NCBI RefSeq assembly: GCF_900128495.1
Contig: NZ_LT635801.1
Span: 1,003,997-1,067,996 of the forward strand
DNA: 64,000 nt
Direction of reading: 5' to 3'
Source: Bacteroides ilei
Lineage (GTDB): Bacteria > Bacteroidota > Bacteroidia > Bacteroidales > Bacteroidaceae
Below the pieces are notes generated by a model. It was not told where the DNA came from. It ran no database searches and saw only the letters and a program-made list of their open reading frames with translations. Shown in pieces: positions 56,424 through 63,057 of this stretch. The position numbers and the translations under genes were made by a program. Every line of letters starts with the position of its first letter. Position 1 is the stretch's first letter.

Positions 56424-57200
56424 TTACGAATTCAGGGCTTCTTTCAGTCGGTCGACAGCTTTTGCCGCATCTCCTTTTTCCTCCTCCAGCAAGGTTACGA
56501 ATTTGCTTCCGATAATACATCCGGCTGCGTGTGAAGCTGCAGCCTCATAGGTCTGTTTGTTTGAGATGCCGAAACCGATCATACGCGGATTTTTCAGGTT
56601 CATGGCCTCTATCCGGCGGAAATAAGCCTGTTTCTGTTCATTGAAGTCTTTCTGTGCTCCGGTCGTGGCGGCTGAAGAAACCATATAGATAAACCCGTCG
56701 GTATGTCCGTCGATGTTTCGGATACGGTCTTCACTGGTTTCGGGTGTGATCATCATGATGACACGTAGCCCGTATTTGTCGGATATGGGTTTATATTCTT
56801 CCATGTAGTCCTTGTATGGAAGGTCGGGGATGATCATGCCGTCGATTCCACATTCCTGGCAGCTTTTGCAGAAGTTGTCGAAACCGTATTGCATGATCGG
56901 GTTAAGGTATCCCATCAGAATCAGGGGGATGGTTGTCGTCTGCCGGATATCCTTGAGCTGGCCGAACAGTTTACGCAAGGTCATACCGTTTTTCAGTGCA
57001 TGGACGGATGCGTCCTGGATGACCGGTCCGTCGGCCATCGGATCACTGAAAGGTATACCTATTTCAATCATGTCGATACCTTTTTCTTCCAGTGTCCGGA
57101 TAGTCTGGGCAGTGCCCTCGAAAGTAGGGGTGCCTGCACAGAAGTAAAGTGAAAGTATATTGTTTTTTTTCCGGTTGAATAATTCATTGATACGGTTCAT
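56424..57200 (-). CDS. trpA: Tryptophan synthase alpha subunit
   Basis: 258 residues from ATG 57200 (MNRINELFNRKKNN), which overlaps the trpF stop by 4 bp; the longer open frame inside trpF is rejected. Catalytic acids lie in MIEIGIPFSDPMADGPVIQDAS (the E and D pair), and the phosphate-binding region is MIGFGISNKQ with a late glycine motif. It releases indole from indole-3-glycerol phosphate and passes it to TrpB. It is the last gene of the operon, whereas trpB is first, so the two subunit genes are separated by the whole operon. Confidence 0.97.
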   Translation of the reverse strand: MNRINELFNRKKNNILSLYFCAGTPTFEGTAQTIRTLEEKGIDMIEIGIPFSDPMADGPVIQDASVHALKNGMTLRKLFGQLKDIRQTTTIPLILMGYLNPIMQYGFDNFCKSCQECGIDGMIIPDLPYKDYMEEYKPISDKYGLRVIMMITPETSEDRIRNIDGHTDGFIYMVSSAATTGAQKDFNEQKQAYFRRIEAMNLKNPRMIGFGISNKQTYEAAASHAAGCIIGSKFVTLLEEEKGDAAKAVDRLKEALNS

Positions 57201-57814
57201 AGTGCTGATGTTTTGAAGTTCTTGATAAATGTTTTCAATGTCTTTATGTCTTTGAGTGCTGGAGACGTTTCGAATCCGCTGTTCAGATCGATACCCGCCC
57301 ATCGGGGATGATTGAACTGTTTCAGGTCGTCCAGGCTGTCGGGATTGAGTCCACCGCTTAGGATGAACGGGATTCCTCCTTGGTATTCTGCCAGCAGATC
57401 CCAGTTGAATTTCTTTCCGGATCCCCCATAGCTGCTGCACGGGGTGTCAAACAGGAAATAGTCGCAACAGGTAGTGTAAGGACCGGTCTTCTGCAGGTCA
57501 TTTACATTTTCCAGTGAAAAAGACTTGATGATTTTGTATCCTTTTTCCTGCAACCTTCTGCACATTTGGGGAGTTTCATTTCCATGCAGCTGGATGATGT
57601 CCAGTTTCATGTTATCTCCTTGGCGGAGGATATATTCATAGGGTGAATTGACAAACACCCCTACGCGTTTCACCGATTCCGGGAGATAGGCAGGCGGAGA
57701 GGATACGAAACGGGGGGAGCGTTCATAAAAGATGAATCCCATCCAGTCGGCTCCCGATGCTTCTACAGCTCGGATATTGTCCGGATCTTTCATACCACAG
57801 ACTTTGACTAGCAT
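57197..57814 (-). CDS. trpF: Phosphoribosylanthranilate isomerase
   Basis: 205 residues. The catalytic Cys is in VKVCGMKDPDNI, the catalytic Asp in AGIDLNSGFE, and the phosphate loop in FILSGGLNPDSLDD. A TIM barrel of normal length. Fused to trpC in enterobacteria but separate here. It overlaps the trpC end by 7 bp. Confidence 0.96.
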   Translation of the reverse strand: MLVKVCGMKDPDNIRAVEASGADWMGFIFYERSPRFVSSPPAYLPESVKRVGVFVNSPYEYILRQGDNMKLDIIQLHGNETPQMCRRLQEKGYKIIKSFSLENVNDLQKTGPYTTCCDYFLFDTPCSSYGGSGKKFNWDLLAEYQGGIPFILSGGLNPDSLDDLKQFNHPRWAGIDLNSGFETSPALKDIKTLKTFIKNFKTSAL

Positions 57815-58602
57815 GATTCTATTCCTTTTATAAAATTCCGTAATGTTTCTCCGGGATCGTGGGTCTTCATGAAGGATTCTCCTATCAGGAATCCCCGGAA
57901 ACCGGCTTTTCTGAGTTGTACGATGGTTTCCGGACTGGAAATTCCGCTTTCCGAAACCAGCAGCATGTCTTTGGGTAGCTTTTCTGCCAGGCGGAACGAA
58001 TTTTCCACATCGGTGTGGAAGGTTCCCAGGTTACGGTTGTTTACGCCTACCATGTCTACAAATTCATTTACATGCCCTAATTCACTTTCCTGATGGATTT
58101 CCAGCAGTACTTCCAGGTTCAGTTCGTGCGCCTTCTGTGCCAGTGTACGACATTCACCGGTTTCCAGACAGGCGGCAATCAGTAACACGGCATCGGCACC
58201 GGTTGCCTTGGCCTGCAGGAGCTGGTAGTCGCAGAAGATGAAATCTTTTCTCAGAATCGGAATGTCGACTGTAGGACGGGCTGTCTTGATATCTTTCAGG
58301 GAGCCGCCGAAGAACTGGCTGTCGGTCAGTATGGAAAGGGCCGAAGCTCCGGCCGTCTGGTAGCTGTGAGGTATGACGGCAGGATCACCTTCCTGCTTGA
58401 TCCAGCCTTTTGAAGGCGAGCGGCGTTTGAATTCGGCGATGATGCCGGAAGGTGAAGAGGCCAGACTTGATTTCATGCTGCGCAGTTTCTGACAGTCGGA
58501 ACAGTGGGCTTCAAGGAAGTCGTATGATACGACTTCCTGCTGCCGGGCTATTTCCGTACGTTTATGCTCCATGATTTCAGTTAATATATCTTTCTTGTCC
58601 AT
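57808..58602 (-). CDS. trpC: Indole-3-glycerol-phosphate synthase
   Basis: 264 residues. Catalytic Lys and Glu positions are in IIAEFKRRSPSKGWI and PILRKDFIFCDYQLLQAKATGADAVLLIAACLE; the phosphate-binding region includes LLVSESGISSPETI and FLIGESFM. A complete TIM barrel. It closes the pyrrole ring in tryptophan synthesis. It lies 28 bp after trpD. Confidence 0.96.
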   Translation of the reverse strand: MDKKDILTEIMEHKRTEIARQQEVVSYDFLEAHCSDCQKLRSMKSSLASSPSGIIAEFKRRSPSKGWIKQEGDPAVIPHSYQTAGASALSILTDSQFFGGSLKDIKTARPTVDIPILRKDFIFCDYQLLQAKATGADAVLLIAACLETGECRTLAQKAHELNLEVLLEIHQESELGHVNEFVDMVGVNNRNLGTFHTDVENSFRLAEKLPKDMLLVSESGISSPETIVQLRKAGFRGFLIGESFMKTHDPGETLRNFIKGIESC

Positions 58603-58630
58603 GATTCTTTTGTTTTTGTGTAAATAAAGG

Positions 58631-59626
58631 TTAGCTGTTCAATTCAACGAATTTCTTGAATGCTTTCCATGCTTTTCCGCTTTCCAGTGATTCTTTGGAT
58701 ATCCCGATACATTCATCAATGGTTTTCCCCGGTTCCATTGCCTGGATGGCGAAAGAAGCGTTTATGAGCACACATTCGGTCTGTGACCGGGTTGCCCGGT
58801 TCTGCAGGACGGCATCGAAAATCTGTGCCGCTTCTTGTGGGGTATCGCCTCCATACAGTTCATGGCTTTTGGCCATTGAAAAGCCCAGGTCGGTAGGGGT
58901 ATAGATGGTTTCATACAGATTGGTCATGACCTTGAATTCACTGGTCATTGAAATTTCGTCATAACCGTCCAGACTGTTTACTACCGCAAATCCGATACCC
59001 AGCTGCCGTAATGTGTTTGAGTACAGGCGGATTTGGGCCAGATCGGCAACTCCTAATAACTGGTAGGCGGGCAGACACGGGTTGATCAGCGGGCCGAGCA
59101 GGTTGAACAGGGTACGTACCTGTATGGCCTTACGTACCGGTGCCACGTATTTCATGGCAGGATTGAAAAGAGGGGCATGCAGGTAGGCCATGTTACATTC
59201 TTCGATGGAGCGGACCAGTTTCTTTTCATCGTTGGTGAACTTTACTCCGTGTTGTTCCATCACGTTGCTGGCACCGCTGACAGAAGTCGCACCGTAATTT
59301 CCGTGTTTGGCTACGTGATAACCGGCGCCGGCTACTATGAAACAGGCGCAAGTTGAAATGTTGAAGGTGTTTTTTCCGTCGCCTCCGGTTCCTACGATGT
59401 CAATCGGCTTATAGGCGTCAAGGTTGACGGGAATACGGGTTTCGAGCAGTGCTTTCCTGAATCCGATGATTTCATCCACTTTTGCCGAACGCATCTGGTA
59501 GACGGTCAGTAAGGCAGCTATCTGTACTTCGTTATAATTGCCTGAAGTTATGTTCTGCATCAAGCTATATGCTTCGTCCTGTGTCAGCTCTTCATGGTTG
59601 AAGAGTCTTGTAAGTATCTCTTTCAT
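58631..59626 (-). CDS. trpD: Anthranilate phosphoribosyltransferase
   Basis: 331 residues. The PRPP-binding loop is DIVGTGGDGKNTFNIST, and the second site is VAKHGNYGATSVSGASNVMEQHG. The N-terminal helical domain (EELTQDEAYSLMQNI) is normal. Not fused to trpG. It lies 14 bp after trpG. Confidence 0.96.
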   Translation of the reverse strand: MKEILTRLFNHEELTQDEAYSLMQNITSGNYNEVQIAALLTVYQMRSAKVDEIIGFRKALLETRIPVNLDAYKPIDIVGTGGDGKNTFNISTCACFIVAGAGYHVAKHGNYGATSVSGASNVMEQHGVKFTNDEKKLVRSIEECNMAYLHAPLFNPAMKYVAPVRKAIQVRTLFNLLGPLINPCLPAYQLLGVADLAQIRLYSNTLRQLGIGFAVVNSLDGYDEISMTSEFKVMTNLYETIYTPTDLGFSMAKSHELYGGDTPQEAAQIFDAVLQNRATRSQTECVLINASFAIQAMEPGKTIDECIGISKESLESGKAWKAFKKFVELNS

Positions 59627-59640
59627 AATGATAGTTCCTG

Positions 59641-60204
59641 TTAATGGTTTAACCAGTTTTTGATGATTTGTCTGCCGTCGGGGGTGAGGACAGATTCCGG
59701 ATGGAACTGGATACCCCGTATGTCGTATTCTTTATGACGCAGTGCCATGATATAGCCTTGTTTGCTGGTTGCAGTAATTTCGAGGCAGTCGGGCAGTCCG
59801 TCGGTGTCGACAACCCATGAGTGGTAATGCCCGACCAGAATTTCACGGGGCAGATTCTCGAAGAGATAATCGTCGGCGACTATCTTTATTGTACTTTGTA
59901 TTCCATGCAACACATGGTCGAGGTTGGTCAGCTTTCCGCCGAACACTTGTCCGATAGCCTGCTCTCCGAGGCATACTCCCAATATCGGTTTTTTACCTGC
60001 ATAGGTACGGATAACGTCAAGCAGCAGACCGGCTTCTTCCGGGATACCCGGTCCCGGTGACAATAGGATCTTGTCGAATTTTTCAAGTTCGTCCAGTTTG
60101 AATTTGTCGTTGCGCAGAACGGTAACCTCACATCCCAGTTCCTTGACCAGATGCCTGAGGTTGTATGTAAATGAATCGTAATTATCGATGATGACAATTT
60201 TCAT
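59641..60204 (-). CDS. trpG: Anthranilate synthase glutaminase subunit
   Basis: 187 residues of a class I amidotransferase: oxyanion region LLSPGPGIPEE, nucleophile Cys in LGVCLGEQAIGQVFGG, and the His/Glu pair in IQFHPESVLTPDG, with HYHSW before it. It delivers ammonia to TrpE. It may also serve folate synthesis as PabA, since no second copy is visible here. It lies 24 bp after trpE. Confidence 0.95.
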   Translation of the reverse strand: MKIVIIDNYDSFTYNLRHLVKELGCEVTVLRNDKFKLDELEKFDKILLSPGPGIPEEAGLLLDVIRTYAGKKPILGVCLGEQAIGQVFGGKLTNLDHVLHGIQSTIKIVADDYLFENLPREILVGHYHSWVVDTDGLPDCLEITATSKQGYIMALRHKEYDIRGIQFHPESVLTPDGRQIIKNWLNH

Positions 60205-60228
60205 GATTGTATTTGTATTATGATCGGT

Positions 60229-61641
60229 TTAGATTGTTTCTGCCAGTAAAATGGCTTTTTTTAGTGCTCCCAGTTTGTTGTTTACTTCCTGCAGCTCATT
60301 TTCTTCGTTGCTCAGGGCTGTAATACCGCCTCCGGCCTGGAACCAGAGTTCGTTGTTACGGCTGACGAAAGTACGGATGGTGATTGCCTGGTTCAGGTTG
60401 CCGTTCAGTCCGATGAAACCGATACAGCCTCCATATGCTCCACGGCAATGCGGTTCTATTTCGCTGATCAGCTGCATAGCGCGTATCTTTGGGGCTCCGC
60501 TCAATGTTCCTGCCGGGAATGTGTCGATAAAAGTCTTGATGGGGTTGGCTCCGTTGTCCAATGTTCCGCTGACACGGCTTACCAGATGGATTACATGGCT
60601 GTAATATTGCGGTTCCTTATAGAATTCTACGTGAGTGTTGTGGCAGTTGCGGCTCAAGTCGTTCCGGGCCAGGTCAACAAGCATTACATGTTCTGCATTC
60701 TCTTTCGGGTCGGCCAGTAATGTTTCAGTCAGTTTCTTGTCTGTCTCCTTGTCACCGCTGCGGCGGGTTGTCCCTGCAATTGGGTCTATGGTTGCACATC
60801 CATCCTCAATCTTACAGTGGGTTTCGGGTGATGACCCGAAAATGCGGAAACCGCCGAAATCGAAATAGAACAGGTATGGAGACGGGTTGATGCTTCTCAA
60901 TGCACGGTACAGTGTAAAGTCGTCGCCTTGGAATTTCTGGATGAAACGCCGTGACAGGACTATCTGGAATACGTCTCCGCGCAAGCAGTGGGCGATACCT
61001 TTCCTGATGTTGGCCTTGTGTTCGTCATCAGTCAGCGGACTGGTGGTGTTTCCTACGGCATGGAACCGGTAAGTAGCATAGTTACGGTTGTTTATCGCCT
61101 TCTCTATTTCATTGATATGGCTCGGCTCCTGATCGTTCTGCATTTCAATAAGCACCATTTCATTCTTGAAATCGTTGAAAACGATCAGGTATTTATATAA
61201 GATATAAAGGATATCCGGTGCATCGTTACGGAATTCTCGGCTGTCCTTGATCGGTATATTTTCAAAGTAGTGTACTGCATTGAATGTCGTATATCCGTAA
61301 AGTCCGCAGTATCTGGCGTATTCTCCTTCCACATGAAAGCAGGCCAGGAATTTGTTGATGGCGTCTTCTACGCGGAATGTTTCTGTAAGGGGTTCCTTTT
61401 CATGGGTGCCGTCGGGATAAGTATAGGTAACAATACCATGGCTGACGCTTATGTTGGCAATCGGGTTCAGTCCGATGAAAGAACGGTTGTTTTCACTTCC
61501 GTGATAGTCGGAACTTTCCATTAATGCACTTTGTACAAACAGGTCGCGTACCTTCAGGTATGTACTTACCGGAGTATGCAGGTCGCCCAAAATCAGTTTC
61601 TGGGCAGTTGTATATGAATATGTTTTCATGTGGGTAATCAT
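60229..61641 (-). CDS. trpE: Anthranilate synthase component I
   Basis: 470 residues. The feedback-inhibition region appears as [19 protein letters not shown] (the LLES equivalent). The chorismate-binding core has [49 protein letters not shown] and [19 protein letters not shown]. The start overlaps the trpB stop by 4 bp (ATGA); an in-frame ATG four codons later is possible. It converts chorismate to anthranilate and is probably inhibited by tryptophan. Confidence 0.96.
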
Positions 61642-62819
61642 TTATAATAGTTAAGATAAGTTTCGATATCCTTGTCTCCACGTCCGGATACCGTAAGTAC
61701 GACAATGTCTGTCGGTTTGAACTTTACTTTATCGAGTGCTGCCAGGGCATGGGCCGATTCCAGTGCCGGAATGATTCCTTCAAGCCGGGTCAGTTCGTAT
61801 GCCGCCTTTACTGCTTCATCGTCGTTGATGGCAAAGACTGAGGCTCTGTGCTGTTTGGCCAGGTTGGCGTGCATCGGTCCGATACCCGGATAGTCGAGCC
61901 CTGCCGAAATGGAATATGGCTCGGTGATCTGTCCGTCTTCATCCTGAATGATCAAAGTCTTTGATCCGTGTATGATACCCAATCTTCCTAATTGGATGGT
62001 TGCAGCCGACATACCTGTTTCAATACCTTTTCCACCGGCTTCGGCCAGCACTATCTTTACACGTTCATCATCAATGTAATGATAGATTGTTCCGGCAGCA
62101 TTGCTGCCTCCTCCTACACAGGCGAACAGGTAGTCGGGATAATCTCTTCCTTCATGTTCTACCAGCTGTTTCTTGATTTCTTCGCTGATGACAGACTGAA
62201 GACGGGCAACCATATCCGGATAAGGATGTGGACCTACGGTTGATCCGATGACATAGTAAGTATTTTCCGGATGGCAGCACCAGTCGCGGATAGCTTCGTT
62301 CGTAGCGTCTTTCAGCGTCATATTACCCGAAGTTACGGCTTCTACCTTAGCTCCTAGCATTTTCATCTTTTCTACATTTACGTGCTGGCGGGCTACATCG
62401 GTTTTACCCATGTATACTACACATTCCATATTCATCAAGGCGCAGACGGTAGCTGTAGCTACACCGTGTTGTCCTGCTCCGGTCTCGGCAATGATCCGTG
62501 TCTTTCCCATCCTGCGTGCCAGCAGTATCTGTCCGATAGCATTGTTGATCTTATGTGCTCCGGTATGGTTCAGGTCTTCTCTCTTGAGATAGATTCTGCA
62601 TCCGTATTTTTCGGAAAGCCGCTGGGCCAGATAGAGTGGAGAAGGACGTCCCACGTAGTCTTTCAGCAATTGGGCGAATTCTTTCTTGAAATCGTCACTT
62701 TCCAGTACTTTAAGGTATGCGTCTTGCAGATCTTTTACACACTGATGAAGGATTTCCGGAATATATGCTCCGCCGAAATCTCCGTAATAGCCGTCTTGGT
62801 TTACCTGATACGTTTTCAT
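61638..62819 (-). CDS. trpB: Tryptophan synthase beta subunit
   Basis: 393 residues. The PLP lysine is in [13 protein letters not shown], the substrate loop in [12 protein letters not shown], and the phosphate-binding motif in [10 protein letters not shown]. The N-terminal [14 protein letters not shown] is standard TrpB1. It is the first structural gene of the operon, directly after the attenuator, so basal transcription past the attenuator favours TrpB. Confidence 0.97.
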
Positions 62820-62864: not shown

Positions 62865-62900
62865 AAAAAAATAAAGGCTGTCGTAAGTACGACAGCCTTT
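62865..62900 (-). terminator. trp attenuator terminator
   Basis: A 13-bp perfect inverted repeat (AAAGGCTGTCGTA / TACGACAGCCTTT, 62873-62900), followed on the minus strand by ATTTTTTTA. It lies between the leader peptide and trpB, 46 bp before the trpB start. A leader segment GTCGTAAG (62941-62934) could pair with CTTACGAC in the 3' half and compete with the terminator. Confidence 0.85.
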
Positions 62901-62934
62901 TAATATCTTAATTGTATATACATGACTGATTGCC

Positions 62935-62997
62935 TTACGACTTTGGAAGTAGTAAGTGGCGCCACCAGAACAATGTATTTACAAATGAATTTGTCAT
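62935..62997 (-). CDS. trpL: trp leader peptide with tandem Trp codons
   Basis: ATG 62997 to TAA 62935 encodes the 20-residue peptide [20 protein letters not shown], with two adjacent TGG codons at residues 11-12. It starts about 23 nt from the predicted transcription start and ends 35 nt before the terminator stem. Ribosome stalling at the Trp codons when charged tRNA-Trp is scarce would allow read-through into the operon, as in enterobacterial trp control. Trp is rare, and a WW pair in such a short ORF at this spot is strong evidence for attenuation. Confidence 0.85.
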
Positions 62998-63026
62998 ATT
63001 AATAGTACTTTGTTGATTGTTTGATG

Positions 63027-63057
63027 CAAATATACGTGGATTTTTTATAAATTCAAA
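63027..63057 (-). promoter_or_regulatory. trp operon promoter, full consensus
   Basis: TTTG (63054-63057 read in reverse), 19 bp, TATATTTG (63027-63034): both boxes match the Bacteroidetes consensus exactly, 29 bp before the leader peptide start. Confidence 0.75.

Follow-up and report, generated by a model that had tools for sequence, protein, structure and literature searches.

The leader that precedes the trp operon in the analysed stretch of Bacteroides ilei DNA (64,000 nucleotides of contig NZ_LT635801.1, hereafter the window) is most probably a ribosome-mediated Trp transcription attenuator with three competing RNA states, in which a nested antiterminator grips the terminator at two places. 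The presence of a Trp attenuator at this site is nearly as certain as can be established from sequence. The match to a known RNA family, the tandem-Trp (WW) leaders at all 30 trpB loci examined in the genus, the terminator and the folds of the switch all support the complete element proposed in the first-pass annotation. This kind of element is not new, and what the present analysis adds is the switch, that is, the way in which the antiterminator is built. For the trp leaders of Bacteroidales in general, we consider it fairly likely that the antiterminator is unlike the enterobacterial one, with one segment comprising X, a mimic of the upper 5' arm of the terminator and complement of its loop, and Z, a mimic of the lower 3' arm; both halves of the terminator would be gripped as the loop and the 3' arm emerge, and the stop codon would be part of the switch.

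All elements of the locus lie on the minus strand, and reading this strand bears out the order given in the first-pass annotation: promoter, leader, terminator with its T tract, and trpB. The promoter (63057-63027) likewise reads exactly as claimed, with an upstream TTTG element (63054..63057) and a -7 element, TATATTTG (63027..63034), separated by a 19-nt spacer, a motif which we take to be of the Bacteroidales type. The pattern TTTG/TTG-N17-21-TAnnTTTG recurs in 108 of the 124 homologues described below and the exact TTTG-N19-TAnnTTTG in 67 of them, whereas TAnnTTTG as such is present in 112 of 124, compared to a rate of 3% in single-base shuffles. The leader ORF (62935..62997), recognized in the sequence and by homologue parsing, starts with ATG at 62997 and ends with a TAA stop at 62937-62935; it has the 20 sense codons and the tandem Trp codons ascribed to it, the latter being codons 11 and 12 (62962..62967), the predicted stall site.

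The first gene of the operon, trpB (61638..62819; TIGR00263, 582 bits with a cut-off of 392), starts at 62819, 45 nt past the T tract, and is followed by trpE, trpG, trpD, trpC, trpF and trpA, in that order (56424..61641), so that seven trp genes in total are encoded downstream of the leader. The curated NCBIfam cut-off is passed by trpB, trpG, trpD, trpC and trpA; trpE (407 bits vs 518) and trpF (167 vs 215) are strong matches that fall below every curated cut-off shown. Upstream of the trp leader, a pectate lyase gene is encoded on the same strand and is open at the window end.

Between the leader ORF and trpB, folding predicts an intrinsic terminator hairpin (62873..62900) with a 12-bp stem and the loop ACUU, followed by a single A and then a T7 tract (62865..62871). 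Of the 13-bp stem with T7 originally claimed, the T tract stands and the stem length does not. A terminator scan of the 2-kb region yielded 2 sites compared to 1.7 expected in shuffles, so that the scan alone is no evidence; what supports the terminator is its 12-bp stem, which recurs in homologues. The fold of the entire leader is 5.5 standard deviations below that of dinucleotide shuffles, and none of 200 shuffles was as low.

The leader matches the Rfam family RF01692 (Bacteroid-trp) at 62891-63017 on the minus strand, along the complete model (1-131 of 131), with a score of 55.4 bits compared to the gathering score of 49; both this score and the position upstream of a trp gene place it in the family. 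In the portions of the sources covered here, the Bacteroid-trp leader family (Rfam RF01692) is presented in PMC2864571 (Weinberg et al. 2010), likened to the E. coli attenuator and located before the trp operon of F. psychrophilum in PMC6414381, and leader-peptide attenuation is suggested for amino-acid operons of a flavobacterium in PMC9723704. Given the RF01692 match and the idea of attenuation in print (PMC6414381, in the portion covered), the element is already known, a membership that had gone unnoticed in the first-pass annotation. The words 'trp' and 'tryptophan' are absent from the covered text of PMC7366714, as is 'bacteroid' from that of PMC2965389, and no description of an antiterminator for Bacteroid-trp was found in the covered portions of the literature searched. 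In the Rfam structure, leader codons 6-9 are joined to AUGUAUAUAC, and the WW codons and the stop region are included; this is the hairpin that we denote 1:2, and the same outer hairpin is found in the minimum-energy fold of the window. The RF01692 model ends with ...GGCUUGUC, inside the 5' arm of the terminator, and consequently lacks the loop and 3' arm of the terminator as well as the antiterminator.

In 53 of the 60 genomes of the genus, trpB was detected over the cut-off, and at the best-scoring 30 of these 53 matches, trpB is preceded in every case by a WW leader together with a hairpin of the form GTCG..CG[AG]C; the check for conserved WW leaders that accompanied the first-pass annotation thus has a positive outcome at these loci, and the refuting condition of an unconserved leader ORF does not hold for them. 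Only 15 of these 30 leaders reach the RF01692 gathering score (14 of 17 and 1 of 13); the other 15, which have a WW ORF and a terminator, are missed at this score, and the model could be extended. At E <= 0.001, RF01692 was detected in 26 of 60 relatives, 93 of 399 family genomes and 38 of 393 order genomes, three sets that overlap and fractions that are lower bounds. Altogether, 135 RF01692 loci were read, of which 126 were parsed into leader and terminator, with WW required for parsing, and the other nine, where no WW ORF and terminator were found, were left out. Two of the 126 were identical repeats, which resulted in a set of 124 distinct homologues, the window included; the plain counts over this set take in closely related rows. 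The TrpB motif is present in 105 of the 123 downstream ORFs, and inspection of the other 18 by eye suggests eight TrpE, four TrpD, four TrpB-like and two unclear products.

The segments that make up the predicted switch can be delineated as follows. Hairpin 1:2 consists of an outer arm, GUAAAUACAU (leader codons 6-9, 62973..62982), and a 3' arm, W (AUGUAUAUAC, 62914..62923), both of which appear in the Rfam structure and in the fold, and the hairpin as a whole coevolves. Inside it, the leader codons CUUACUACU (62948..62956) pair X, with a mean probability of 0.85 for the window without a ribosome, and according to the Rfam structure, X and Z are otherwise sequestered with leader codons in this hairpin. 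X (GUCGUAAG, 62934..62941), supported by complementarity and coevolution, spans the leader stop codon and is predicted to pair with X' (CUUACGAC, 62880..62887), that is, the terminator loop and the top of the 3' arm. The second predicted contact joins Z (CAGUC, 62924..62928) and Z' (GGCUG, 62893..62897), the base of the 5' arm, as suggested by the duplex fold, by folding with a ribosome mask and, more weakly, by coevolution. In the window, X (8 bp) and Z (5 bp) together form a nested hairpin, X-Z...Z'-X', of -19.9 kcal/mol as a duplex.

Sequence and computation provide the parts, their conservation and coevolution, and the three folds under the ribosome mask; the mechanism that we propose on this basis is as follows. 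With no ribosome on the leader, the leader codons would pair X, Z and W in hairpin 1:2, and the terminator would form. With a sufficient supply of Trp, presumably the signal, a ribosome that reaches the stop codon inside X would mask X together with some or all of Z, and the terminator would form here too. When Trp is short, a ribosome stalled on WW would break hairpin 1:2 and leave X and Z free; with ribosome and polymerase presumably coupled, the emerging terminator would then be met by Z at the base of the 5' arm and by X at the loop and subsequently at the top of the 3' arm. This two-grip antiterminator would draw both halves of the terminator apart, and RNA polymerase would read into trpB. 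The switch as first described included the X contact, which is supported, and was incomplete, given that the Z:Z' contact and hairpin 1:2 had been missed.

In the window, GTCGTAAG (62941-62934) is a perfect 8-nt complement of CTTACGAC (62887-62880), in agreement with the original claim that an 8-nt segment at the stop codon is complementary to the terminator, the partner being made up of the loop and the upper 3' arm. When the dinucleotides of the window were shuffled 20,000 times, a complement of 8 nt linking the WW-to-terminator stretch to the loop and upper 3' arm arose in 153 cases. In the homologues, a motif of its own served to find X, and the terminator arm set the register for X', with the X:X' pairing unused in choosing either; all eight pairs are formed in 74 of the 124, seven in 28, six in 16, and fewer in 6. 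Strict Watson-Crick runs of at least six pairs are present in 51 of 124 homologues compared to 308 of 2,480 shuffles. Position 6 of X, where the stop alternates between TAA and TGA, faces its loop partner as A-T in 72 homologues, G-C in 22 and G-T in 20, with 10 non-pairs. In three distant leaders, both sides have changed: GUCGUGAA with UUCACGAC in L075, AUUGUGAG with CUCACGGU in L133, and ACCGUGAG with CUUACGGU in L136. In one group (L033, L035-L038, L040), the loop mismatches X (6/8 pairs), no clear X is present in L073, L079 and L130, and L129 and L134 pair badly, probably because they were mis-registered by the script, and are kept in the counts as poor pairings. That X is part of the antiterminator is well supported.

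The UAA or UGA of X is the leader stop in 94 of the 124 homologues, 58 of which have 8/8 X:X' pairs. The leader stops outside X in the other 30, and among these, X:X' pairing is 8/8 in 16, a share similar to the 58 of 94 with the stop in X, and amounts to seven pairs in 6; in 25 of the 30, X is read in another frame (for example, SYNSKSRKG in L006), and 14 of these 25 retain 8/8 pairs. X is thus kept even where it is not the leader stop, which argues for selection on the RNA rather than on the peptide. In nine of the frame-swapped leaders (L006, L008, L009, L044, L057, L060, L081, L091 and L095), X is read as a SYNS..SRKG-like sequence as opposed to LQL..KS and stop, with the nucleotides nearly unchanged; L272 and L274 show the same swap with a slightly altered X (GTCGTAGA). 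As read from these sequences, the natural frame swap appears to point to RNA-level rather than peptide-level selection.

The role of Z in the antiterminator is less well supported than that of X. The mean energy is -10.5 kcal/mol for X:X' vs -6.8 kcal/mol for Z, so that X:X' is the stronger part. Where the 5' arm is GAGCCCUG, Z is mostly CAGUGCUC or CAGCGCUC; with GGCCUG in the 5' arm, Z can be CAGACC (L002, L003), and with GGUCUG, it can be CAGUCC (L004, L055). The fourth position of Z is Watson-Crick in only 1 of the 54 CAG-anchored rows (54 of 104 could be anchored), the pairs being T-C in 18, T-G in 17, C-C in 12, A-C in 4, T-T in 2 and A-T in 1; our guess is that this keeps the antiterminator from excess strength.

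Coevolution was assessed by a swap test on a TrpB tree of 104 rows, a quick tree with many weak forks, where leaders from pairs on separate paths were combined with their own or with the other's terminator; the counts and p values given are medians of 200 random pairings. For hairpin 1:2 (leader vs X-Z-W), the own partner was better in 34 of 42 tree-independent pairs (Wilcoxon p 1.6e-5). For the antiterminator, where the first-pass annotation had suggested a check for compensatory changes, coevolution of leader and terminator is supported both as a whole (23 of 32 pairs, Wilcoxon p 0.005, largest p among the 200 pairings 0.025) and for X:X' (11 of 13, Wilcoxon p 0.003, largest 0.035). Z:Z' alone, with 19 of 30 pairs, a Wilcoxon p of about 0.06 (largest 0.26) and a sign-test p of 0.2, is not significant. 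Controls with reversed partners were null throughout (X 6 of 10, Z 15 of 28, antiterminator 16 of 36, hairpin 1:2 23 of 44). A single-site test on the tree at X6 showed the right direction, with 6 changes on the tree and only 3 pairs on well-supported branches, and because there are at most 3 such pairs, it lacks the power to reach significance. Plain permutation of partners among the 124 homologues, where the observed pairing was better than in any of 20,000 permutations, ignores kinship and was therefore set aside as proof and replaced by the tree-independent pairs.

In folding, the ribosome was represented by a mask that extended 15 nt upstream and 13 nt downstream of the first A-site position, with the RNA out to X'. 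Without a ribosome, the top of the terminator is formed in 95 of the 124 homologues, the antiterminator in 7 and neither in 22; with the A site occupied by the second Trp codon, the antiterminator is formed in 113 of 124; and with the ribosome at the stop, the terminator top is formed in 93 and neither structure in 29. For the window, the succession is terminator, antiterminator, terminator (no ribosome, stalled, at the stop) at all six footprint sizes, and over the homologues, the smallest footprints with the first Trp codon yield the antiterminator in only 66-68 of 124. The terminator top is present, absent and present in these three states in 80 of 124 real leaders compared to 101 of 1084 shuffled ones, in which the WW-to-terminator stretch was randomised. 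When only the window is considered, this terminator pattern persists in 26 of 100 shuffles, and the case therefore rests on the homologues. In computation, then, mutually exclusive helices 1:2, 2:3 and 3:4 are switched by ribosome position, and the earlier proposal that a ribosome at the stop covers X and a stall at WW frees it finds computational support in homologue pairing, mask folding and coevolution.

As the RNA of the window emerges, Z:Z' forms first, when the loop appears, and X then zips onto the loop and the 3' arm. At full length, the terminator wins at equilibrium in every state in the window, and with a mean probability of 0.97-0.98 in the homologues, so that everything depends on timing. 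Full-length equilibrium folding was rejected as a discriminator, as it gives the terminator in every state for E. coli trpL too. The reservation expressed at first, that the 8-bp pairing is weaker than the terminator, is accurate at equilibrium and fails as an objection: the calculation for E. coli trpL gives the same result, and the weaker pairing is thus no argument against the switch. A heuristic search for direct paths, applied to the RNA that lies 3' of the ribosome, puts the barrier for leaving the completed antiterminator at 15.2 kcal/mol for the window, with a median of 14.6 in the homologues and 5.8 in E. coli; for the window, it is only 4.6 kcal/mol as long as the final four bases of X' have still to emerge. 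The decision would hence fall during the emergence of X', and the antiterminator would presumably win in time, not in energy.

E. coli trpL resembles the leader described here in its tandem-Trp leader peptide and its three states, and under the same calculation, the stalled ribosome leads to the antiterminator before the 3' arm is out, with the terminator winning at full length. The two-grip architecture differs from that of E. coli trpL, the sole attenuator compared for grip: the E. coli antiterminator takes only the 5' arm, whereas the antiterminator predicted here takes the base of the 5' arm, the loop and the 3' arm top, and with the loop and 3' arm top involved, the decision would come later in transcription than in E. 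coli. Also unlike E. coli trpL, the stop codon here lies inside the antiterminator segment. An enterobacterial-type 2:3 helix, with the 5' arm paired and the 3' arm free, is not what the model contains, because X pairs not only with the loop but also with the upper 3' arm; the original contention that the design differs from the enterobacterial one is correct as regards this grip, but the logic of 1:2, 2:3 and 3:4 is closer to it than had been claimed. Ribosome-mediated Trp attenuation, as proposed here, is also the mode of action of the trp leaders of Sinorhizobium and Actinobacteria.

An alternative that we regard as unlikely is an attenuator similar to that of E. coli, with an antiterminator made of Z and the 5' arm only, or of another segment, and the likeness of X explained by an old duplication or by the constraint of hairpin 1:2. 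Indeed, X is similar to the upper part of the terminator 5' arm, the one arm that is gripped in E. coli, and the pairing of X with leader codons in hairpin 1:2 would be enough by itself to conserve it. However, in most homologues X is matched by the terminator loop, a part that is dispensable for a plain terminator, and this loop tracks the TAA/TGA changes; the preponderance of own partners for X:X' in independent pairs (11 of 13) as well as the higher stability of X:X' compared to Z (mean -10.5 vs -6.8 kcal/mol) also speak against this alternative.

Sensing of Trp by a protein or a tRNA directly at the leader, in a TRAP-, TrpR- or T-box-like manner and with an incidental ORF, would fit a leader that is long, structured and conserved, but is hardly credible in the face of a WW leader ORF at 30 of the 30 genus trpB loci examined and of 126 of 135 RF01692 loci that parse as WW ORF plus terminator, WW being required for parsing. 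Moreover, searches of the genome yielded 0 matches both to TRAP (MtrB, PF02081), for which the control matches in B. subtilis, and to TrpR (PF01371), for which the controls match in E. coli and B. subtilis; in the window, only RF01692 reached the Rfam cut-off, so there is no T-box match. The idea that the terminated leader (~150 nt) or the peptide additionally acts in trans on other genes has a precedent in peTrpL of Sinorhizobium (PMC7298713, in the portion covered) and is, in our judgement, quite improbable here; the loss of the peptide sequence where the frame shifts speaks against a role of the peptide.

The proposed ribosome-mediated attenuator with the two-grip antiterminator provides RF01692 with a comparatively supported mechanism, stating how the fold that lets transcription continue is probably built, in a form that is directly testable. 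It also exemplifies how an antiterminator can be constructed so as to touch the loop and the 3' arm of the terminator, and for gut bacteria of the Bacteroidales, it offers a natural control element whose predicted response to Trp can be tested.

A pattern scan of the genome contigs for X followed by the terminator detected at least 118 stretches, of which 80 loci were listed. Among the 19 listed loci with WW upstream or a G+C content below 50%, 15 are WW leaders by eye and 4 look like chance matches, and none of these 19 listed matches suggests this design before genes for another amino acid. Two Bacteroid-trp leaders, L098 and L125, are located about 5 kb apart in one genome (G253:C39, at about 110007 and 114978); they precede trpB and trpD, both have 8/8 X:X' pairs, and they represent a duplicated attenuator, perhaps derived from a split operon. 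In G032:C83:48888-50023, the trpB match is in two adjoining pieces with leader L011 intact, which reflects either a sequencing error or a broken gene. L168 (JAMPGY010000008.1), in a record titled Clostridium sp., bears a Bacteroidales trp leader, and this title is probably a misnomer.

The genome that harbors the trp leader also encodes a His leader, MNNNTAHRHHHCPDV, before hisG (L286, G000:C1 about 837,400-837,800), with the terminator GGCUUGCCG-UUUA-CGGUAAGCC. By eye, the 12-nt AAACGGUAGGCU at its stop can pair the whole 5' arm plus loop GGCUUGCCGUUU, so that, unlike the trp leader of the same genome, this His attenuator appears to follow the conventional 2:3 design.
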